From Candidatus Manganitrophaceae bacterium (GTDB taxonomy: Bacteria; Nitrospirota; Nitrospiria; SBBL01; Manganitrophaceae), in the NCBI GenBank assembly GCA_016200325.1, contig JACQEZ010000008.1, forward strand, positions 124,001-188,000: DNA of 64,000 nucleotides, in the 5' to 3' direction. Below, piece after piece: positions 14,829-26,335 of the stretch (position 1 is the first letter of the stretch; every line of letters starts with the position of its first letter). A program made the translations under genes and the position numbers. Below the pieces are notes generated by a model, which saw only the letters and a list, made by a program, of their open reading frames with translations, was not told the origin of the DNA and did no database searches.

Positions 14829-17800
14829 TTACGAAGCTCCCTTCGTTCTCTGTTTTAACCGGTCGAGGAAACGGCGGGCCGATGCAACCCGCAGGTCCTT
14901 CGGCGAGAGCTCCGTATTTTTGACGAACGTCTCCAGCGCCAACCGGGCCGGTCCATTCTGCCCGAGTTCTTGATAGGCCATCCCGAGATAGTACTGAACA
15001 ATGCTCGCCGAGGCCTGGCTGCCCAGCTCTTTCTTTGCTTCTTCCAATTCGGCCGCAGCCGGTTTAAACATCCCAAGGATAAATAATCCGGTGCCGCTGT
15101 AGAGGCGGCTCAACGGCGCGGAGACAATCCGATCGAAGAGAAGCGCCATCCGCTCCTCCTCCGGAATTTGGATCCCCGCCTTTCGACGCCACTCCACCTG
15201 CTTGAGATAGGGGAGGGTGGAGAATCGCTTCGGATCGGTCTCCAGCTCCTTCCGCCACTCGTTGAGGCTCCCGAGGAATCGATTCAGGGCCTCTTTGGCC
15301 TCCGCTTCTTTTCCCAATTTGGTAAACACCAAGTTTTGATAGTAGTAGCCGAACGGCTCGGAGAAGACGAGCCCCTGCGCCAACTCCTCCAGCGCCTTTT
15401 GATATTGTCCGAGGTAATATAAATTGATCCCGTGGTAGAACGCCCCTTGCAGCTTCTCAGGATAGGCCGTCCTCAGGCGGGTGAAGAGCGGCTCCGCCTC
15501 CTTAAACGCCGCCTGTACTTGGTAGTGCTGGGCCAGGCTCAGGAGCGCCTCCATGTTCGACGGCTCTTTTTGAAGGGCCGCTCGCCAGGCGCGGGCGGCC
15601 CCCTCCCGGTCGCCCAGTTTTTGGAACACCCGCCCCATCAGCCAATCTCCTTCGGCGGCCGGGTCGAGAAGCAGTCCCTTTTGAATCATCTCGCGGGCTT
15701 CGTTCTCTTTTCCGTTTCGGAGCAGCCCCTTGGCGATGGCAAAATAAGCCGACCCCTTGGTCCGGTTCGACTCGGTCGGCTTCACCAGATAGAGCGGGCC
15801 GGTCCGGGCCGCCCCTTTCATCTCGGCGAGATGGATCGAGAGGGTGTCCTCAAAGAGCGATTTCGGCGTCTGGAACTCAACCACAGTGTAATCGTCGGTG
15901 TTGAAGATCCCATTGCCGGTGTAGCGATCGATCTCATTCGGTCCCAACATGAAATAGGCCCAGAGATCGAATGGGGAATAGACCTCGACATGGGCGAGGT
16001 CTGCGGCGACGGAGGGAACGGCGATCCGTCGGGCGATCTCCTGGCTGTCGATTGCGATCTCCCGGTCCGAACCGACGAGAATCAGGTCTCCCGCATCGGT
16101 ATAAAATATAAAGACCTGGGGGAAAACGGCATGAAAGGTCCGGACGACCGCTTTCAACTCCGGGGCGCGGATGCCGTAGAAGTGAATCCACTGCGTGAAG
16201 ATTCCCCCCGGCTTGAGGTGGGCCCGGCCCAATCGGAAGAACTCTTCGGTAAAAAGCTTCGAAGAGCCGTTCCGCCACGGATGCGACGGCTCGGAAACGA
16301 TGATGTCGAATTGATCCTTGGAAAGAATCAGATAGTTCCGGGCGTCGTCGATCACCATCTGAACGCGGGGATCGCCGAGGACGTTCCCATTGAACGAATC
16401 AAAGAGGTGCGCCCCCTCGACCACGGCCGGCTCGATTTCGAGCGTGACCAGCTTGGAGAGGGGATGGGTGGCAATGGCGCCGGCGGTGATACCGCTCCCC
16501 AATCCGACCAGCATCACCTCCTTCGCCTGTGGGGCGAGAAGCATCGGAAGATGCCCGACCAACAGCTGCGTCTTCATGTCGCCGGTCGTCGATGCGTTCG
16601 CTTTGCCGTCGATGGCGAGGGTGAGATGGGCGCTCTTCGCCAGCGTCGGATGCTGGACCACCGTCACCGTGGAGGAGACCCCCTCTTTATAAAAAAGCAG
16701 GTCGAGGCTGGAAAGCTTGCCGAACAGCTCGCTCGACATCTGCAGCGGATTCCAAGCAGGCGTCGAAAGGGAGACGACGAGGAGGAAGGCGCCGACGCCG
16801 CCGACCGCCCAGAGACGCGCTTCGCCGATCTCCCGCATCCGGATCCACAACGCCAAGCTCAGAATCGCGTTGGTCAAGATGGCAATATGGAGGCTCCGTT
16901 GAATCCCGAGTGAGGGAAGAAAGATAAAACCGATTGCGAAGGAGCCGACAATCGTTCCGATCGTGTTGATGGCGTAGGCGCGTCCGACAATCGAGCCGAG
17001 GCCGGCATCGGCTGGCGGCGTACTTGAACCTTTCTTCTGAGGGGCGGTCCCCCCAGAAGTGAGAAGGTGGATCACCAACGGGAAGACCCCTCCCATGAGG
17101 ATCGTGGGGATGAGCATCGCCGCCCCGGCAATGAAGAATTTGGAGGCGGAGAGAATCCCCCCTTCAGAGTGAAAGATCTCCAGGAGCTTGAAGAAGAGGA
17201 CGGGGAGAAGCGGAAAGAGATACTCTCCGGCAAAGGCGAAGAGGGCAATCCCCCCTTGGACCACGGCCAACAGGAGAAACGGCCTGGAAAAACGCTTGAG
17301 CAAGAAGGAGAAGAGGAAGCTTCCGATCGCAAGCCCCAGGAGGAAGGTGGCGAGCATCGTTGCGAACGAATAGAGGGTCGAGCCGAGAATCAAGGTCAAA
17401 ATCCGCGTCCAGACGACCTCGTAGATCATCGCGGCAAAACCGGAGAGGGCGAACACAACGTATAAAATACGCCGCCGCCCGCTGTCAGAGCCTTCTGGAG
17501 GGAGGGTCTTCCCCTCCCGTACCGGATCGGGAGCAACCGTTGTCTTCCGGCCGAGGGAGATCGCAATTAATCCGACGGTCCCGTTCAGGAGCGCCGCCAG
17601 GAGAATTGTTTTCTGGTGTCCGAACGTCGGCAACACGAGAAATCCAGCCCCCAAGACGCCGGCCATCGCCCCCATGGTATTAAAGGCATAGAGAAGACCG
17701 ACCCCCTTTCCGACCTCTTTCTTGTTTTTATAGAGGCGGGCCAACACCGGGAGGGTTCCCCCCATCAAGGCGGTCGGGAGGAGCAGAATCAAGACCGCCA

Positions 17801-18137
17801 TGACGAACCGGACCAGGCTGAAAGCATAAAACGAAAAATGAAAGAGACGATGAAGGAATTGATAAATCGGAATCAGCGATGAAAAGAGGAGCGGGACCAA
17901 AAAGGCATATCCGCCGATTCCCAGCTCCAGTAAACCATAAACACGAAGTGGGTTGGCATAGTGATCGGCGCGTTTCCCAAAAATTTCACTGCCGAGCGCC
18001 AAGCCCCCCATAAATGCGGTCAGGAGGGTAGAGATAGCAAACATCGACGCGCCGAAGATGAGCACCAGTTCCCGCATCCAGACCATCTGGTAGATTAAGG
18101 CGGTCACGCCGGAGAAAAAGAAAAGAATCGGAATCAA
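14829..18137 (-). CDS. Large fused membrane / spermidine-synthase-like / TPR protein
   Basis: An 1102-residue protein in three parts. Residues 1 to about 480 form two sets of six to seven membrane helices with duplicated MFS-like motifs (GGTLPVLARLY in the first set, GGVFPLVIHLL in the second). About 500-760 is a spermidine-synthase-type Rossmann domain with VMLVGLGSGITAGAIA, VTLEIEPAVVEGAHLF, VVDDARNYL-like IDDARNYLILS and DIIVSEPSHPWRNGSSKLFT, where the aminopropyltransferase Asp is partly replaced (SEP). About 800-1100 are tetratricopeptide repeats. Such 'fused MFS/spermidine synthase' proteins are widespread and mostly uncharacterised; true polyamine synthesis is doubtful. Ends directly against the M14 peptidase gene. 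Confidence 0.88.
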   Translation of the reverse strand: MIPILFFFSGVTALIYQMVWMRELVLIFGASMFAISTLLTAFMGGLALGSEIFGKRADHYANPLRVYGLLELGIGGYAFLVPLLFSSLIPIYQFLHRLFHFSFYAFSLVRFVMAVLILLLPTALMGGTLPVLARLYKNKKEVGKGVGLLYAFNTMGAMAGVLGAGFLVLPTFGHQKTILLAALLNGTVGLIAISLGRKTTVAPDPVREGKTLPPEGSDSGRRRILYVVFALSGFAAMIYEVVWTRILTLILGSTLYSFATMLATFLLGLAIGSFLFSFLLKRFSRPFLLLAVVQGGIALFAFAGEYLFPLLPVLFFKLLEIFHSEGGILSASKFFIAGAAMLIPTILMGGVFPLVIHLLTSGGTAPQKKGSSTPPADAGLGSIVGRAYAINTIGTIVGSFAIGFIFLPSLGIQRSLHIAILTNAILSLALWIRMREIGEARLWAVGGVGAFLLVVSLSTPAWNPLQMSSELFGKLSSLDLLFYKEGVSSTVTVVQHPTLAKSAHLTLAIDGKANASTTGDMKTQLLVGHLPMLLAPQAKEVMLVGLGSGITAGAIATHPLSKLVTLEIEPAVVEGAHLFDSFNGNVLGDPRVQMVIDDARNYLILSKDQFDIIVSEPSHPWRNGSSKLFTEEFFRLGRAHLKPGGIFTQWIHFYGIRAPELKAVVRTFHAVFPQVFIFYTDAGDLILVGSDREIAIDSQEIARRIAVPSVAADLAHVEVYSPFDLWAYFMLGPNEIDRYTGNGIFNTDDYTVVEFQTPKSLFEDTLSIHLAEMKGAARTGPLYLVKPTESNRTKGSAYFAIAKGLLRNGKENEAREMIQKGLLLDPAAEGDWLMGRVFQKLGDREGAARAWRAALQKEPSNMEALLSLAQHYQVQAAFKEAEPLFTRLRTAYPEKLQGAFYHGINLYYLGQYQKALEELAQGLVFSEPFGYYYQNLVFTKLGKEAEAKEALNRFLGSLNEWRKELETDPKRFSTLPYLKQVEWRRKAGIQIPEEERMALLFDRIVSAPLSRLYSGTGLFILGMFKPAAAELEEAKKELGSQASASIVQYYLGMAYQELGQNGPARLALETFVKNTELSPKDLRVASARRFLDRLKQRTKGAS

Positions 18138-18722: not shown

Positions 18723-19127
18723 TTAATTGAATGGTCTATCGAGCCGATCAGACTTTCTTTTCTTCTTAATAGCGAGCGTCACCTCGGCGAGGACTCTTGG
18801 AATTTCGAACGGCTTCATTAAATAACCACAGGCTCCCAGTCGAACCAACTCAATTGCACTGGTCACCGTCCCATATCCGGTGATGATCAGAACTTGTATT
18901 TTTGGATGATATTTCTTAATGGCTGTTAAGACCGCCACCCCCTCCATCCCGGGCATTCTCAAATCAAGCGTTACCAGATCTACCGTCTGTTGACGGATGA
19001 ATTCTAACGCCTGCAAACCGTCGCTGACTTCTTCCACCTGACAAAATGGCGCCAGCACCATTTTTAGAGACTCTCTCGGTCCACTTTCATCGTCGACGAT
19101 TAAGACTTTACTTCTGAAATTCATCAT
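18723..19127 (-). CDS. Single-domain response regulator (receiver only)
   Basis: A 134-residue CheY-like receiver without output domain. Acidic pair D12-D13 (LIVDDE), phosphoacceptor in VTLDLRMPGMEG, Thr switch in IITGYGTV, and Lys in GYLMKPFEIP. The GYGTV...A sequence and TSAIELVRLGA resemble the receivers of NtrC-type regulators, so it may be a detached NtrC-like receiver. It ends in a basic tail. It has no adjacent kinase on its own strand; the hybrid kinases about 2.4 kb away on the other strand are candidate partners. Confidence 0.88.
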   Translation of the reverse strand: MMNFRSKVLIVDDESGPRESLKMVLAPFCQVEEVSDGLQALEFIRQQTVDLVTLDLRMPGMEGVAVLTAIKKYHPKIQVLIITGYGTVTSAIELVRLGACGYLMKPFEIPRVLAEVTLAIKKKRKSDRLDRPFN

Positions 19128-19835
19128 TCACCCCTCCCAGAGTATACCTTACAAGTATTAAACGATCTACCTTGAAGAATCTATCGGCGAGGCGAAACAT
19201 TTTAATAGGATAGAAAACACTTATGCGGAAAGTGAATGGGCTTCTTTCCTCGAGCAGGAGAGGAGACCCCGTAAACCGCCTACCCATTTCTGTTTGGGAA
19301 GATCGAGAGGGTCTCCGAAACGCCATACCACAAGGGTAGAAATGCCTCACCTTAAACATAAAAATGATAGAAACCCTGTATTCACTTGGTTCGATGAGTA
19401 TGTTATTGTTTGTTTGGTGAGTATGAACGCCTTTTTTTGAAGGTGTCGGCGGTTAAACTCCAGACGGCTCATCCAATTAACGGCTTTGCCCCCGCAGTTA
19501 AAGTATCCGATTATAATTCCCGGATTTTAATCCTTTTTTAATCTACTTTTAATTTTAAAAATTTATGATAGAGTATATTCCTAATGTCTATTATTCCGTC
19601 ATCTCGTCTCGTCCGCTTCTGATGGGGGTCTCGTTGGACCGTGATGCCGTCTCGAGAAAAACAGATCCGACCCACCGGGTAGGCCTTCCCATCGGTTATC
19701 GTCGCCCCCCTCATTTCAATTCCGCTTCTGATTATATCGATCCATCTTTATTCCATCATCGAGGCTTTACTCGGACCTATATCGGCCTGTTCCACAGGTC
19801 CGCCGACAACCATCATTTTACTTAGAAGGCATCAT
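19128..19835. other. Long intergenic region upstream of the PilZ-HMGR operon
   Basis: About 700 bp, relatively AT-rich in its second half. It contains a decayed tRNA-Lys 3' end (listed separately). An open frame at 19565-19825 has no ribosome site and no recognisable sequence, so it is not called. The region presumably carries divergent promoters for the receiver gene and the PilZ-HMGR operon, but no consensus pair could be assigned with confidence. Confidence 0.5.
19441..19478 (+). repeat. Eroded copy of the tRNA-Lys 3' end
   Basis: The stretch resembles the tRNA-Lys variable loop, T-arm, acceptor and flank (18320-18358). Shared blocks in order are GGTGTC, GGTT, a CC-AG core, CGGCTCA and CCAAT, with scattered changes and two gaps. 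The T-stem no longer pairs, so it is not a functional tRNA. It lies about 1.1 kb downstream of the intact gene in the same orientation. Confidence 0.4.
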
Positions 19836-21506
19836 ATGAGCCAGCATGACCGTCGATCTTATTTTCGGGTGAGAGAGACACTCAGTCTCCGCCTGCTCCT
19901 GAGGGATCCTTATACTAAAAAGCAAAAAATATATCATAGCAGCGCCATCGACATCGGCCTAAAAGGCCTTTCCATCTCAACGGAGAAAGCGCTTCCGCGG
20001 ATTGATAAAGGGATCGTTGAAGTCGCGCTCCCCCTGCCTCTGCAGCGGCTAAAAGCGCGGGTGCGGGTAAAGTGGAGGAATGAAGAGAAATACTTATATG
20101 GAATCGAATTCGTTCAGGCGCCCGACAATCAGGTGGGCGACTGGGAGACGTTCATCAAGACCTCTCGGGCTTCCGTTCCCGACCGGCGGGAGAAAGACTC
20201 CGGCCGGAGAACCACCCCCCTCCCGTCGGACGATGATTTATCGAACAAAGAAAAGAGAAAGATCATCCGGCGCATTTCCGATTTATTAAGCACCGATTTT
20301 GAGCCGGAAGACCGCGCCTCTCTATCGAGGGCCGATTTGGTGCCGAAGCAGAAAGAGATCGACTACACCCTGGCCGCGGCGAAGACGCGAAGAGAATGGC
20401 TGAGCGCGAAGACCGGGGCCACGCTCAATCACATCGCCGTCTTCAGCGAAGATCCAAAAAACATGCAGGGGAACATTGAAAATTTTATCGGGGTGACGCA
20501 GGTCCCCATCGGGGTGGCCGGACCGTTAAAAGTAAACGGACAATATGCGAAAGGAGATTTCTACGTTCCTCTCGCAACGACGGAAGGGGCGCTGATCTAC
20601 ACCTACACATTGGGGATGCAGGTGCTCCATCTCTCGGGGGGGGTTACCACCCGGATCATCCGGGATGAAACACACATTTCTCCGCTCTTTACTTTTGAGA
20701 GCTTAAGCCAAACCACTCAATTTTGCTACTGGCTTGAGGCGAACTTCTCCCAGATTAAAAAACATGCGGAGGCGACCACCCGGCACGGAAAGCTCTTGCG
20801 GGTTGAACCGATCCCCTATGATCGAAATGTCATCGTCAAGTTCTGCTATTCCACCGGCGATGCAATGGGTCTCAACATGATCAATTTTGCAACCGAGGCG
20901 GCCTGTCACTTCATCGTGCCGATCGTGAAACCGAAGCGGTTTTATTTGCGCTCCAATTTTTCAGCCATCAAAAAGGTCTCCGCGCACAATTATGCCGCCG
21001 GCATGGGGAAAACCGTGATCTGCGAATCGGTGATTCCAAGCAAAGTGATAAAAAGAATTTTTGACATCACGCCTGTAGAGGTTGCGGCCTATTTTCAGGC
21101 GGCCATGCTATCGGGTATTCATTCGGGAATGATCGGAATGAACGGGCATGTGGCAAACGGACTCACCGCCCTTTTTATTGCCTGCGGACAGGATGTCGCG
21201 AGCATTGTCGACTCTCACATCGGGATCAGCAATTTTGAGATAACAGAGGAAGAAGACCTTTATATCAGTCTTAAATTGCCAAACCTGGTGGTCGGAACGG
21301 CGGGAGGAGGTGTGGCGCTGGCAAGCCAAAGAGAATGCCTCGAACTAATCGGTTGCTATGGAACGGGTAAAGCAGAAAAGTTTTCAGAAATTGCAGCAGC
21401 CACCTGCCTTGCGGGAGAAATCGCTATCTGCGCGAACGTCGCTAACGGGAAGTTTGTCAATGCCCATAAGATGTACGGCCGAAAACAACCCGAGACACCT
21501 AAATGA
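19836..21506 (+). CDS. PilZ domain fused to class I HMG-CoA reductase-like domain
   Basis: A 556-residue fusion. Residues 1 to about 110 are a PilZ (cyclic di-GMP-binding) domain: RxxxR as R7-SYF-R11, then D39-IG-LKG, where the usual DxSxxG has Gly for Ser. About 130-180 is a charged linker. About 190-550 matches HMG-CoA reductase, which makes mevalonate with NADPH: ENFIGVTQVPIGVAGPL, ATTEGAL (catalytic-type E250), TGDAMGLNM (cofactor-binding motif), a lysine pair K379-K380, IACGQD (D453), VGTAGGG and C-terminal H544. The Asp that normally precedes the Lys pair is Ile378, and the GRGK that follows is GMGK, so the HMG-binding loop is altered. The next gene overlaps by ATGA. It may be a mevalonate enzyme under c-di-GMP control or a repurposed fold. 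Confidence 0.88.
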   Translation: MSQHDRRSYFRVRETLSLRLLLRDPYTKKQKIYHSSAIDIGLKGLSISTEKALPRIDKGIVEVALPLPLQRLKARVRVKWRNEEKYLYGIEFVQAPDNQVGDWETFIKTSRASVPDRREKDSGRRTTPLPSDDDLSNKEKRKIIRRISDLLSTDFEPEDRASLSRADLVPKQKEIDYTLAAAKTRREWLSAKTGATLNHIAVFSEDPKNMQGNIENFIGVTQVPIGVAGPLKVNGQYAKGDFYVPLATTEGALIYTYTLGMQVLHLSGGVTTRIIRDETHISPLFTFESLSQTTQFCYWLEANFSQIKKHAEATTRHGKLLRVEPIPYDRNVIVKFCYSTGDAMGLNMINFATEAACHFIVPIVKPKRFYLRSNFSAIKKVSAHNYAAGMGKTVICESVIPSKVIKRIFDITPVEVAAYFQAAMLSGIHSGMIGMNGHVANGLTALFIACGQDVASIVDSHIGISNFEITEEEDLYISLKLPNLVVGTAGGGVALASQRECLELIGCYGTGKAEKFSEIAAATCLAGEIAICANVANGKFVNAHKMYGRKQPETPK

Positions 21507-24500
21507 CCTCTTTTAACATCTCCTGTACAGGAACCGCGATTGTCAGCCTCCTTATCGGTCTGTTCGTTTTTATCAAAAATTGGCAAGGCTCGATCAATCG
21601 AAAGTGGGCGCTCTTTTGTCTGAGTGTCGCCATATGGAGTTATGGTCTTGGAATGATGACCTCCGCGACCGATATCGAGTCTGCCGAATTTTGGATCCGT
21701 ATTCATTACCTCGGCGCAATCATGATCGGCCCTCTTTTTATGGACTTTGTTCTCAGGCTCTTGAATCAGAGTAGGCGGACTGCTTTGATTGTTTCCTACT
21801 TCTCCGCCGGTCTTTTAGAAGTAATGAACTTAAGCCATCTGCTCGCTTACCCGGCACCGCTCCCACCCTTTAATTACTATACGAAACCTGAAAAGCCTTA
21901 CTTCCTTTTCGTGGCATTTTTCGCCACGGTCGTTACCTATTCGTTGAAACTTCTCTTTGAAGCCTATAAAAGTGCGACCGGTCAAACTCGGAATCAACTT
22001 AAACTGCTTTTTATTGGTCTGGCCGTCGGATTCTGCGGCGGCTCAACCGCCTTTTTTCCCGTCTTTAATCTTCCTCTTTTTCCCTATGGTATTTATTTTG
22101 TAGCAGTATATACCATAATTGTTACTTATACTATTATTCAATACCGCTTCTTCGACATCCAGACAGTACTTCACAAGACGCTGACCTGGCTGACCATTTC
22201 TTCTATCGTTCTTGTACCTTTGATTGGTGGTCTTTACTTTACAAAAAATTTCTTTGTATCGCTATCTCCAATTCGATTTGCAACATACATTTCGGCGGTG
22301 GTTGCTCTTCTCATCCCCTATACTAAATTCATTCAACCCCACATTGATCATCTTTTTCAACGTCGCCGTTATGACATGCAGAAAATATTGCAGGGGATGG
22401 TAAAAGAGCTTGTGGCATTAAAAAGTGTAGCTGGTCTTATCGGAAAAATTGCAGGAACCATTGAGGAGGCGCTCTATGTTTCGAGAGTAACCTTGATTTT
22501 ATGGAGCGATAAGGAGCAGCGATTCAATGTCGTGAAAGGAGAAGCCCCGTCCGAGGAGGCCCCGATTACGGGAGATTATCTTTTTCTAACATGGATGAGA
22601 GAAAAAGATAGAGTTATTGAATGGGAAGAGCTCTCTTATAATCCCGAATATGAGTTTATTCGTCCGTTGGCTCACGCTTACTTTAAAAAATTTAATGCAA
22701 AAGTGGCACTGCCCCTTATCCATGATGGAAAACTTATTGGCTTAGTTAATCTGGGCGAGAAGGAAAATCTCAAGCCTTTTTCAAGTATGGATCTCGATTT
22801 CCTCTCAAACCTGCGCGCGGAAGCCTCGATCGCGCTGAGCAATTCGCTCCTTTACGATGATGTCGCCAAGATGTCGGAAGAGTTACGCCGATGGGCCAGC
22901 GAACTGGAGCGCAAAGTAGAGGACCGGACCTCCGAGTTGGCCGAAAGCAAGCGTCAGCTCGAGGAATCGTACCAGAAGCTTCAAGAGCTCGATCAGCTGA
23001 AATCGAAATTCTTCGCCAACATCAGCCATGAACTACGGACCCCGATCACGCTCATCCTCGCCCCCACGGAGATGATGCTCAATCGGGACCTCGGGGAGTT
23101 AAACCCGGACCAGGAAAAGTATCTCTCCATCATGCAGACCAACTCCCTTCGCCTCCTAAAATTGATCAACAATTTATTGGATTTGGCAAAGGTCGACGCC
23201 GGAAAGATGGAGCTTTATTACAACCGGGCCGATTTCTCAAAGTTCGTGAGCGGGGTGGTCGCCTCCGTCAGTCCGATGGCGGAGAAGAAATCGTTGGCGC
23301 TGCGGTTCGAAAGCGACCCTTCCATTCCGGAGATTTTCTTCGATGCCGACAAAATCGAGAAGGTTCTGCTGAACTTGATCTTCAACGCTTTAAAATTTAC
23401 GGAAAAAGGGGAGATCAAGGTCGCCTGCATAAGAGAGGACAATCAGGTGGCCGTGCGCATCACCGATACCGGGATCGGAATCCCAAAAGGGCATATGTCC
23501 AAGCTCTTTAGCCGTTTTTCCCAGGCCGACAGCTCCGCGAGCCGAAAATTTGAAGGAACCGGGATCGGCCTCGCCCTTGCCAAAGAGTTGGTCGAGCTCC
23601 ATCAGGGAAAGATCTGGGCAGAGAGCGAAGAGGGGAGAGGGAGCACCTTTCATTTCGTCCTTCCAATCTATGTCCGGCTGGAAGAGGTGCCCGGGGCGCT
23701 CGATCGGCGGAGCGAGGCGCTCCCCGTCTCCGAAAAAAGGCGCGAGGAAGATTGGACTCGGTCCTTGCAAACGAAGGCCGATTATGCAACCGATGAACTC
23801 GTCCGGGAAACGGCCTCCCTCCCGGAAGAGAGCCCACACAGCGGCGTTGAATATCGCATTCTCCTGGTCGATGACAACCCCGACATGTTGAGTTATATCG
23901 CCTCCCAGCTCAAGGCCGATTACCGACTCCTCTTTTCAAAAGACGGAAAAGAGGGGGTGGAACGGGCGAAATTGGAACTTCCCGACCTGATCATTTCGGA
24001 TGTGATGATGCCGTATAAAGACGGCTATCAACTCTGCCACGAAATAAAAGAAGAACCGCGCACCTGCCATATTCCCATTATCCTCCTGACAGCCAAAACG
24101 GATCTCTCAACGAAGATCGAGGGGCTGGAGCATGGCGCAGACGACTACCTCACCAAACCGTTTAACGCTCAGGAACTACGAGCCCGCGTCCGCTCTCTCA
24201 TCAATCTCAGGAAGCTGGAGCGGGAGATTCAGCAGCGGAGCAATCAGCTGGAAGAGACCCTCAATACGTTAAAAGAGACGCAGGGGCAGCTGGTTCAATC
24301 CGAAAAGATGGCCGCGCTCGGCCTCCTCATCGCCGGGGTGGCGCATGAGATCAACAATCCGGTCAGCTTTGCAAAGGGAAGTCTTGCGATTGTCCGGCGC
24401 GTCCTGGACGAGATGAAAAATGCAGAACGTTTAAGCCCGGCGGAGCTCGCCGAGCTTTCGGAAGATTTAGAGACCTCCATTCAGGTGATTAAAAACGGCC

Positions 24501-25060
24501 TGGACCGGACGGAAAACATCATCAGAAATCTCAAGAGTTTCGTTCGAAAAGATGAAGAGATCCTCAAAGCCTATCATCTCGAAGAGGGGATTGAGTCGAC
24601 CCTTCAACTTTTCCGGCATGAGACGACCCACCGAATCACCCTCCTCCCCGATTACGGGAGAACCCCTTCGATCGAGGCGATTCCGGGACAGATCAACCAA
24701 GCGATCATGAACATTCTTCAAAACGCGGTTCAATCGATTTCGGATCGCGGAGAGATCGTGATCAAAACCGAGCAGATCGGAAACCAGGTCCGAATTTCTA
24801 TTCGGGATACCGGCTGCGGCATTCCCGAGAAAGATCTCCCCCGAATTTTTGATCCCTTCTTCACCACCAAGGAAGTCGGCAAAGGAACCGGCTTGGGAAT
24901 GACCATCACTTATAAAATCATCGAAAATCATCACGGTCGCATTGAGGTGACAAGTACCGTCGGACGTGGAACGGAAGTTGTTCTCCATCTCCCCATCTCT
25001 CAACCGGGTGGTTCCAGTCTGATCGGAAGGGGACTCTATGCCGGAAGCACTCCCATATAA
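21503..25060 (+). CDS. Hybrid sensor kinase: 7TM-GAF-HK-REC-HK
   Basis: An 1185-residue signalling protein. Seven to eight membrane helices (about 10-275) form a HisK-7TM-type sensor. A GAF-like domain (about 295-450) and coiled coil (450-500) lead to the first kinase, with phospho-His H509 (NISHELRTP), an N box (LLNLIFNALKFT), DTGIGIP and GTGIGLAL. A receiver (about 815-930) follows, with LVDDNPD, phosphoacceptor in LIISDVMMP and DDYLTKPF. A coiled coil then joins a second, NtrB-like kinase (VAHEINNPVS; DTGCGIP; GTGLGMTI). Two complete kinase cores in one chain are unusual. It overlaps the PilZ-HMGR stop by 4 bp and the next gene by 23 bp, so all three are co-translated. Confidence 0.93.
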   Translation: MTSFNISCTGTAIVSLLIGLFVFIKNWQGSINRKWALFCLSVAIWSYGLGMMTSATDIESAEFWIRIHYLGAIMIGPLFMDFVLRLLNQSRRTALIVSYFSAGLLEVMNLSHLLAYPAPLPPFNYYTKPEKPYFLFVAFFATVVTYSLKLLFEAYKSATGQTRNQLKLLFIGLAVGFCGGSTAFFPVFNLPLFPYGIYFVAVYTIIVTYTIIQYRFFDIQTVLHKTLTWLTISSIVLVPLIGGLYFTKNFFVSLSPIRFATYISAVVALLIPYTKFIQPHIDHLFQRRRYDMQKILQGMVKELVALKSVAGLIGKIAGTIEEALYVSRVTLILWSDKEQRFNVVKGEAPSEEAPITGDYLFLTWMREKDRVIEWEELSYNPEYEFIRPLAHAYFKKFNAKVALPLIHDGKLIGLVNLGEKENLKPFSSMDLDFLSNLRAEASIALSNSLLYDDVAKMSEELRRWASELERKVEDRTSELAESKRQLEESYQKLQELDQLKSKFFANISHELRTPITLILAPTEMMLNRDLGELNPDQEKYLSIMQTNSLRLLKLINNLLDLAKVDAGKMELYYNRADFSKFVSGVVASVSPMAEKKSLALRFESDPSIPEIFFDADKIEKVLLNLIFNALKFTEKGEIKVACIREDNQVAVRITDTGIGIPKGHMSKLFSRFSQADSSASRKFEGTGIGLALAKELVELHQGKIWAESEEGRGSTFHFVLPIYVRLEEVPGALDRRSEALPVSEKRREEDWTRSLQTKADYATDELVRETASLPEESPHSGVEYRILLVDDNPDMLSYIASQLKADYRLLFSKDGKEGVERAKLELPDLIISDVMMPYKDGYQLCHEIKEEPRTCHIPIILLTAKTDLSTKIEGLEHGADDYLTKPFNAQELRARVRSLINLRKLEREIQQRSNQLEETLNTLKETQGQLVQSEKMAALGLLIAGVAHEINNPVSFAKGSLAIVRRVLDEMKNAERLSPAELAELSEDLETSIQVIKNGLDRTENIIRNLKSFVRKDEEILKAYHLEEGIESTLQLFRHETTHRITLLPDYGRTPSIEAIPGQINQAIMNILQNAVQSISDRGEIVIKTEQIGNQVRISIRDTGCGIPEKDLPRIFDPFFTTKEVGKGTGLGMTITYKIIENHHGRIEVTSTVGRGTEVVLHLPISQPGGSSLIGRGLYAGSTPI

Positions 25061-26267
25061 GGAGTATCCCATTCTCTTTGTCGACGACGAAGAGATGGCT
25101 CTCATTACCTTCAAGAATCTCTTTAAAAAAGAATTCAAAATCTATACGGCAAGGAATGGGGAGGAGGCGCTCGACCTGGTCGATTCACATCCGGACCTGG
25201 CGATGATCGTCTCGGACCAGCGTATGCCGCGGATGAGCGGGGTCGATCTGCTCCATGCCTGCTCGAAAAAAAGGCCCGATTTAATCCGGATGCTGATGAC
25301 CGCCTATACCGAAATTGATCTGGTGATCGAAGCAATCAACCAGGGAAATATCTACCGGTACATTACAAAACCGTACCACGAAGAAGAGTTGAAGCAGACG
25401 CTCAAGCAGGGGATTGAACGCTATTTCCTGGGGAAAGAACGCGACCGCCTTCATGCAGAGAAGATCGAAACCTTAAAACGGATGGCCCAGGCAAATCGAC
25501 TCACCGCCATCGGCGTCCTGGCGGCCGGCATGGCACATGAGATCAACAATCCGCTCGTTGCAATCAACACCTTTCTCCAGATGATCCCGAGGAAGTTCGA
25601 TGAAGAAGTGAAGGATGAGGAGTTCTGGGACAAGTTTTATAAGGTGGCGCTGGACGAGACCCATCGGATTCAGATGCTCGTCAGCGATCTCCTTCACTAT
25701 TCGAAAACCCCGGAAGACAGTCAGATGAAATGGACGCAGGTCAATATCAATGACCTTCTCCATGAGACAATGACCTTTCTGGAAAATGAGGCGAGAAAAA
25801 AGGGGCTGACCATTCGGAATGAGTTCGATCACAACCTTCCGCCCTGCTTGGTCGACCGGGAAAAGATGCGTCAGGTCTTTTTGAATCTCTTCTTAAATGC
25901 AATTCAAGCGACATCTGAAGGTCACATTTTGGTAAAAACCTCTTTCGATTCGGAATCGCAACATCCTTTTTTTCACGTCGTCCTTCAAGACACCGGTATC
26001 GGCATTCCGGAAGAAAACTTGCAGCGGCTCTTTGACCCGTTTTTTACCACGAAAAAAAATGAAGGAACGGGACTGGGGTTGATGATGTGCAACCACATCA
26101 TCGACGAGCATCGCGGCAGCATTGAGGTCAAATCGGAGGTCGGAAAGGGGACGACCATGACGCTCCATCTGCCGGTCAACCCATCGCACTTCAATCGCAG
26201 AAGGTCGGAACGACGGGGAAGCGCACCTCCTTCGGGGGCCAAGCCCCACGCTTCTTCCGGCAGGTAG
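25038..26267 (+). CDS. REC-histidine kinase (soluble)
   Basis: A 409-residue cytoplasmic protein. The N-terminal receiver (about 10-125) has FVDDEE, phosphoacceptor D60 (IVSDQRMPRMSG) and K111 (YITKPYHEEEL). A coiled coil leads to an NtrB/HupT-like HisKA with H167 (GMAHEINNP) and a HATPase domain (FLNLFLNAIQAT, DTGIGIP, GTGLGLMM). The receiver resembles RpfG/HupR receivers. It overlaps the preceding hybrid kinase by 23 bp. Together they could form a phosphorelay in which the large kinase feeds this receiver. Ends just before a strong bidirectional terminator. Confidence 0.93.
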   Translation: MPEALPYKEYPILFVDDEEMALITFKNLFKKEFKIYTARNGEEALDLVDSHPDLAMIVSDQRMPRMSGVDLLHACSKKRPDLIRMLMTAYTEIDLVIEAINQGNIYRYITKPYHEEELKQTLKQGIERYFLGKERDRLHAEKIETLKRMAQANRLTAIGVLAAGMAHEINNPLVAINTFLQMIPRKFDEEVKDEEFWDKFYKVALDETHRIQMLVSDLLHYSKTPEDSQMKWTQVNINDLLHETMTFLENEARKKGLTIRNEFDHNLPPCLVDREKMRQVFLNLFLNAIQATSEGHILVKTSFDSESQHPFFHVVLQDTGIGIPEENLQRLFDPFFTTKKNEGTGLGLMMCNHIIDEHRGSIEVKSEVGKGTTMTLHLPVNPSHFNRRRSERRGSAPPSGAKPHASSGR

Positions 26268-26301: not shown

Positions 26302-26335
26302 AAACGGCCCCTGTCTATTGAGACAGGGGCCGTTT
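26302..26335. terminator. Bidirectional intrinsic terminator
   Basis: Perfect 14-bp stem (AAACGGCCCCTGTC, loop TATTGA, GACAGGGGCCGTTT) with A and T runs at its feet, between the convergent REC-kinase and htrA genes. It would stop transcription from both sides. Confidence 0.9.

Follow-up and report, generated by a model that had tools for sequence, protein, structure and literature searches.

The stretch of DNA analysed here (the window, 64,000 nucleotides) carries an intact open reading frame, unbroken from ATG to TGA, that encodes a protein in which a PilZ domain precedes a domain of the HMG-CoA reductase (HMGR) family. Both domains score above their Pfam cut-offs, PilZ (PF07238) with 30.4 bits against 22.5 at residues 5–99 and HMG-CoA_red (PF00368) with 366.9 bits against 27 at residues 182–549, which confirms the observation, made in a preliminary description of the locus, that the two are joined on one chain. 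The stop codon of this gene overlaps the start codon of a hybrid histidine kinase gene by 4 bp (ATGA, 21503–21506), and a gene for a receiver-histidine kinase follows, in what appears from the layout to be a three-gene operon (PilZ–HMGR, hybrid kinase, receiver-kinase). The features of the locus are:

18723..19127, minus strand: divergent single-domain response regulator, 134 aa (sequence)
19580..22690, plus strand: stretch homologous to the exchange cassette (promoter region, PilZ–HMGR, 7TM, part of GAF; limits inferred from the G005 breakpoints)
19836..21506, plus strand: PilZ–HMGR-like fusion gene, 556 aa, proposed c-di-GMP-gated signal synthase (ORF and profile search)
19848..20132, plus strand: PilZ domain, residues 5–99 (Pfam match and motif reading)
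20379..21482, plus strand: HMG-CoA reductase-like domain, residues 182–549 (Pfam match and residue alignment)
21503..25060, plus strand: hybrid histidine kinase, 1185 aa (ORF and Pfam)
21533..22159, plus strand: 7TM receptor domain PF16927, kinase residues 11–219 (Pfam)
25038..26267, plus strand: receiver-histidine kinase, 409 aa, third gene of the apparent operon (ORF)
26302..26335, no strand assigned: stem-loop with T tail, probable terminator (consensus match alone)

As judged by Pfam, the hybrid kinase has the domain order HisKA_7TM – GAF – HisKA/HATPase – receiver – second kinase; HisKA_7TM scores 61.2 bits against a cut-off of 28.6, and HisKA, HATPase_c and Response_reg are also matched. 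HisKA_7TM, which two open-access papers list among sensor domains with no ligand assigned, is the kinase region whose variation follows that of the putative synthase (see below). The receiver-histidine kinase is collinear in three related genomes (G005, G002 and G003), and the strong stem-loop lies between the end of the operon and a convergent DegP-like gene. On the other side of the fusion gene, the response regulator is a possible phosphorelay partner. Beyond it, positions 14829–18137 of the minus strand encode a 1102-aa spermidine-synthase-like (SpeE-like) membrane protein with a TPR-like C-terminus, located beside an AstE-like gene and forming a conserved collinear flank in the genus.

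The fusion is the sole PF00368 protein of its own genome (4.2 Mb, 99% complete). Four genomes of the genus contain it, with identities to the window protein of 70% (G005), 57% (G002) and 54% (G004), and it is also found outside the family, in G325 (another family of the same class) and in G543 (Omnitrophota). Since it recurs in several genomes, including the complete single-contig G005, a sequencing join of two separate genes is ruled out. Genes in relatives were taken from simple ORF calls; the G004 gene (L062:8414-10072) has a frameshift near the C-terminus, perhaps a sequencing error. Plain HMGRs in close relatives had been named as a finding that would speak against the fusion: none occurs within the genus, but PilZ-less members of the same clade exist in f20 genomes (same phylum) and in Omnitrophota, and these are equally associated with a 7TM kinase. 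Structure models built from two-sequence alignments (window and L001) were of low confidence, with pLDDT values of 37 for the fusion and 56 for the 7TM part.

The PilZ domain has an intact R7xxxR11 motif (RSYFR at residues 7–11). Residues 39–44 read DIGLKG (D39-I-G41-x-x-G44), with Gly replacing the Ser of (D/N)xSxxG, as in all three genus members checked; the motif is canonical in G325, G543 and G003. The window protein resembles PilZ-domain proteins (PF07238) in its above-cut-off score and in RxxxR, and differs from them in the DxGxxG reading of the genus and in having an acyl enzyme as output. We infer that c-di-GMP may gate the HMGR-like domain through PilZ.

The HMGR-like domain and its relatives

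The best annotated relatives of the HMGR-like domain are class I HMGRs, and it has in common with these (PF00368; human 1dq8, Methanothermococcus 6hr7) the fold, the length, the catalytic Glu/Lys/Asp/His and the DAMG-x-N cofactor motif. E250, K379, D453 and H544 correspond to catalytic residues E559, K691, D767 and H866 (human numbering), and N755 is likewise kept. Every residue listed in the preliminary description was found (E250, I378, K379-K380, G389-M390-G391-K392, D453, H544 and DAMGLN), and the alteration of the HMG-binding site extends beyond the changes given there (D690→I378 and R702→M390, human to window): R590 is replaced by I281, S684 by R372, and K735 by a non-Lys residue in an alignment column that is uncertain by one residue. 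R590, S684, D690, K691, K692 and N755 make polar contacts to an HMG-like ligand near the cis loop, and K735 pairs with the HMG carboxylate in a salt bridge (PMC9500038). Across the clade described below, the catalytic residues are nearly invariant (in L073, the catalytic Glu is Gln), and the HMG-binding residues are lost clade-wide.

With the reductase centre intact and the HMG anchor gone, the domain may be a thioester reductase acting on a non-HMG, probably more hydrophobic acyl group. The proposal that the fold binds another CoA ester is the one we favour among those put forward earlier, given the retained catalytic set and the two relatives that adjoin a beta-ketoacyl synthase or ACP gene; in these (L072 and L073), an ACP gene precedes the HMGR-like gene and a ketosynthase gene lies nearby. 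A degenerate pseudo-enzyme is disfavoured because the catalytic residues are kept.

Direct control of mevalonate synthesis by the second messenger had been offered as another interpretation, and both the PF00368 score and the class I relatives speak for it. Against it, the window protein scores 323.3 bits with TIGR00533, the mevalonate-enzyme equivalog, for which the cut-off is 441.8, and HMG-CoA synthase (PF08540) was found in 0 of 23 genomes with HMGR-like genes. All matches to the archaeal-type HMG-CoA synthase model TIGR00748 fall far below its cut-off, and the one examined is KASIII/FabH-like, so that these were rejected as HMG-CoA synthases. The own genome has three GHMP kinases, namely IspE, a homoserine kinase and a heptose-kinase-like (HddA-like) protein, and no mevalonate kinase; the sole GHMP kinase of an Omnitrophota relative is IspE. 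With neither HMG-CoA synthase nor mevalonate kinase, and with the HMG-binding residues gone, the window protein almost certainly has a role other than mevalonate synthesis, and the interpretation is largely refuted. Unlike class I HMGRs, it is an orphan in a genome that has IspE, with its HMG-anchoring residues replaced, is fused to PilZ (REC in relatives) and is paired with a 7TM kinase. An annotation as HMG-CoA reductase in such genomes need not imply a mevalonate pathway.

Relatives were sought in reference genomes and then among 396 genomes from the own phylum and roughly 385 from Omnitrophota. The reference-genome scan gave L001 (Omnitrophota), a homologue without PilZ in which the Ile-Lys-Lys loop is kept and a 7TM kinase is next; a wider profile in a further Omnitrophota sample found no additional genomes with a match, and a search of the f20 family no additional clade members. 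In a maximum-likelihood tree, the 7TM-associated members form one clade across two phyla (support 100/98). Canonical HMGRs fall outside it, as does a further set, Vibrio among them, whose genes are found in lipid-like clusters or solitary. Clade members are plain, PilZ-fused (the genus, G325 and G543) or receiver-fused (L079-L082).

In 15 of 18 clade members, the next gene downstream, in the same orientation, is a HisKA_7TM gene, with gaps mostly of −7 to +212 bp. In the remaining three, the 7TM gene is one gene off (L073), 7 kb off (L079) or missing from a short contig. At loci outside the clade the count is 0 of 9, several of these contigs being short. Adjacency by chance is expected at about 1e-4 per genome, and the cases of pairing are partly dependent because ancestry is shared. 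The genomes carry 1 to 10 HisKA_7TM genes; in G410, G543 and G087 there is just one, and it adjoins the HMGR-like gene. When 53 7TM domains were placed in a tree, whose backbone is weak, the HMGR-paired domains clustered (5 changes; shuffling gave 14, and as few as 5 in 0 of 500 cases). The receptor of G543 (Omnitrophota) falls with those of f20 (L064/L065), a grouping repeated by the matching HMGR domains.

Other arrangements were noted among the HMGR-like proteins. At L073 (11875-16155; G649), two successive 7TM proteins have an HD-GYP-type output and no kinase, and adjoin KS-ACP-HMGR-GMC oxidoreductase genes; a loop from signal to c-di-GMP breakdown is possible there. L068:1361-4063 and L069:1163-4144 (G101, same phylum) encode HMGR-like proteins of about 900 aa with a C-terminal EcKL/APH-type small-molecule kinase, in which R590, D690 and R702 are kept and the Lys of GRGK is lost; this may be a reductase-kinase making a phosphorylated alcohol. 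In another HMGR-like clade (L066, L067, L074-L077 and L083; also in Vibrio, L089/L091), gene clusters recur around several members and include acyl-CoA ligase, a DUF3419-looking protein, prenyltransferase-like genes and a CTP-transferase/phytol-kinase-looking membrane protein. HMG-CoA synthase was found in none of the tested genomes with this clade, and we therefore read the clusters as a putative uncharacterised lipid or natural-product pathway.

Cassette exchange and acyl enzymes beside 7TM kinases

Within the genus, the flanks of the locus are collinear (the 1102-aa SpeE-like protein, the receiver-kinase and DegP). G004 and G005 are mostly 96–99% identical in flank DNA and 46–66% identical across the PilZ–HMGR and 7TM segment. 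This low-identity stretch starts some 250 bp ahead of the fusion gene and extends into the kinase gene, where identity returns to 97% at approximately kinase residue 395, inside GAF. The DNA of G004 and G002 is mostly 95–98% identical within the cassette and about 92% in the flanks. At the protein level, G005 and G002 are 97.5% identical in the kinase core, 32% in the 7TM domain and 57% in PilZ–HMGR. The most economical reading of these alignments is that recombination moved the putative synthase, its promoter and the receptor domain as one unit.

A third allele is found at the same locus in G003, where the kinase core is 91% and the 7TM domain 31% identical to G005. Its synthase slot holds a 549-aa protein consisting of PilZ and a PLP-dependent acyltransferase of the BioF/Kbl (BioF/CqsA) family, which scores 415 bits with TIGR01825, below the cut-off, and 243 bits with the CqsA-type autoinducer-synthase model NF005526 (cut-off 428). 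An enzyme of a known autoinducer-synthase family can thus replace the HMGR-like enzyme at this locus. Synthase and receptor domain co-vary between similar strains on a conserved kinase core with conserved flanks, a pattern of the pherotype type. Co-exchange of this kind indicates functional coupling, and direct protein contact could yield the same pattern as a diffusible molecule.

Other HisKA_7TM loci also contain acyl enzymes. PilZ-KASIII lies beside a HisKA_7TM kinase in G000 and G004; the PilZ-KASIII/7TM locus of the own genome was reached via the sub-cut-off TIGR00748 match. In G002, PilZ-acyl-CoA dehydrogenase, PilZ-like-aldehyde dehydrogenase and PilZ-TENA/haem-oxygenase-like proteins are encoded beside 7TM kinases, and further 7TM kinases of the genus adjoin acyl-ACP-reductase-like proteins and a YbgC-type thioesterase. 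The neighbours in Omnitrophota include a PilZ-methyltransferase, a KASIII protein, a receiver-ketosynthase next to ACP, KS-ACP-thioesterase, ACP-enoyl-CoA hydratase-GDSL, and an AMP ligase with a thioester reductase; several of the names given here reflect our reading of the sequence, and the loci are given as individual cases. 7TM genes with no obvious enzyme neighbour also occur (L178, L179, L193 and L203).

Three of these arrangements may be described further. At L172:9562-18590 (G002), four genes stand in a row, for PilZ-TENA/haem-oxygenase-like, PilZ-acyl-CoA dehydrogenase, PilZ-like-aldehyde dehydrogenase and 7TM kinase proteins, so that several enzymes each carry their own PilZ domain. 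L204:1334-3025 (G430) encodes a receiver fused to a beta-ketoacyl synthase, with ACP before it and a 7TM protein one gene later. A methyltransferase-like protein of about 340 aa recurs beside 7TM kinases or the receiver-HMGR gene (L196, L199, L202 and L079:7846-8868); its PhcB-like identity is a by-eye likeness to autoinducer methyltransferases and found no confirmation in the profile library.

Proposed function and comparison with known systems

We favour, with moderate confidence, the reading in which the window protein synthesises a small acyl-derived signal and the downstream 7TM hybrid kinase is the receptor of that signal. Binding of c-di-GMP to PilZ would switch the HMGR-like domain, which would use NAD(P)H to reduce an acyl-CoA or acyl-ACP thioester other than that of HMG, yielding an aldehyde or alcohol; the residue pattern is consistent with an acyl pocket that has been reshaped around an intact Glu/Lys/Asp/His set. 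The product would then bind the 7TM domain of the overlapping kinase, a step to which the strict gene pairing, the translational coupling and the exchange of synthase and 7TM as one cassette all point. From there, the domain order suggests a route through GAF, kinase and receiver to the downstream receiver-kinase. The working mode would be that of CqsA/CqsS, RpfF/RpfC and ComQXP. Several observations argue against a signal pair: many kinases adjoin unrelated enzymes, some 7TM genes have no enzyme neighbour, the PilZ domain of the genus lacks the motif Ser, the pairing is looser at L079 and L073, and L073 has the Glu→Gln change.

The likeliest of the alternatives, although we regard it as unlikely, is that the HMGR-like enzyme supplies the cell's own envelope or physiology with a lipid or metabolite; the 7TM kinase would monitor this product or its pathway internally, and no message would pass between cells. 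Identical gene pairing and co-exchange would be expected in that case, and the KS/ACP neighbours and the sister HMGR-like clade in lipid-like clusters without 7TM are in keeping with it; however, allelic replacement of one enzyme family by another on a conserved kinase core is typical of a switch in signal specificity and less expected for housekeeping lipid synthesis. It is improbable that the domain forms no product and acts as a sensor, as had also been suggested, detecting a CoA ester or NAD(P)H and contacting the kinase under the control of c-di-GMP or phosphorylation. The PilZ or receiver fusions, the altered substrate loop and the overlap with the kinase gene would suit such a role, but the catalytic residues are nearly invariant in the clade, and the variable part of the kinase is the membrane 7TM domain and not a cytosolic contact domain. 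A sensor is also less likely because G003 fills the slot with an unrelated acyltransferase fold; together with the unrelated enzymes at the paralogous loci, this makes the acyl enzyme, and not the fold, the common trait.

The probability is very low that the arrangement reflects plain conservation of neighbourhood, that is, an operon inherited or transferred as a block in which enzyme and receptor have no functional link. Related genomes do share the locus, and some 7TM kinases stand without an enzyme, but the pairing spans two phyla and several architectures, and the right edge of the cassette falls inside the kinase gene. Lowest of all we rate direct control of mevalonate synthesis by c-di-GMP, to which we assign almost no weight.

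More tentatively than the signal pair itself, and at somewhat less than an even chance, we propose that the locus represents a modular signalling class, in which a PilZ (c-di-GMP) or phosphorylatable receiver input is fused to acyl-thioester enzymes that can stand in for one another (HMGR-like, KASIII, BioF/CqsA-like, acyl-CoA dehydrogenase, methyltransferase and others). These would make signals for cognate HisKA_7TM kinases, with synthase and receptor domain swapped as one cassette, even across enzyme families. Such a class would give the orphan HisKA_7TM domain a class of ligands and would add the HMG-CoA reductase fold to the autoinducer synthases as a new type. If the signal-pair reading is true, (i) the window enzyme is a new kind of bacterial cell-signalling enzyme and its family joins the autoinducer synthases, (ii) the ligand class of the HisKA_7TM receptors becomes directly testable, and (iii) intracellular c-di-GMP gates the production of an extracellular signal within one polypeptide. 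The natural exchange of alleles provides a ready genetic assay with matched and mismatched synthase/receptor pairs. To our knowledge, hardly any cell–cell signalling has been described in these organisms.

No earlier report of the HMGR-like family as a signal synthase was found in the searchable open-access literature, which likewise returned no report joining HMG-CoA reductase with a histidine kinase and an autoinducer or receiver domain, and nothing beyond a general review for PilZ together with CqsA. We know of no PilZ–synthase fusion. The layout resembles that of alpha-hydroxyketone quorum sensing (CqsA/CqsS and LqsA/LqsS), where the synthase gene adjoins that of a membrane histidine kinase, and the G003 allele has a BioF/CqsA-family enzyme in the equivalent slot. 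The window synthase, in contrast, belongs to the HMGR family with an added PilZ domain and not to the alpha-oxoamine synthase family of CqsA; the receptor here is HisKA_7TM, likened to CqsS in gene layout.

In RpfF/RpfC (DSF) and PhcB/PhcS (3-OH-PAME), the synthase of an acyl-derived signal is encoded beside a membrane hybrid kinase, and DSF signalling is linked to c-di-GMP; the enzyme folds of these systems differ from that of the window synthase. In the agr system of Staphylococcus, which has a peptide signal, the synthase and the membrane kinase N-terminus vary jointly and the core and flanks are conserved. The exchange described here has a parallel in pattern in the pherotype polymorphism of ComQXPA in Bacillus, where the synthase and the N-terminal part of the kinase vary, the kinase core and the flanks are conserved, and the variation marks communication groups (PMC4008528). 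Whereas ComQXPA and agr use peptide signals, the gene that varies at the present locus encodes an acyl-thioester enzyme whose very family can change.
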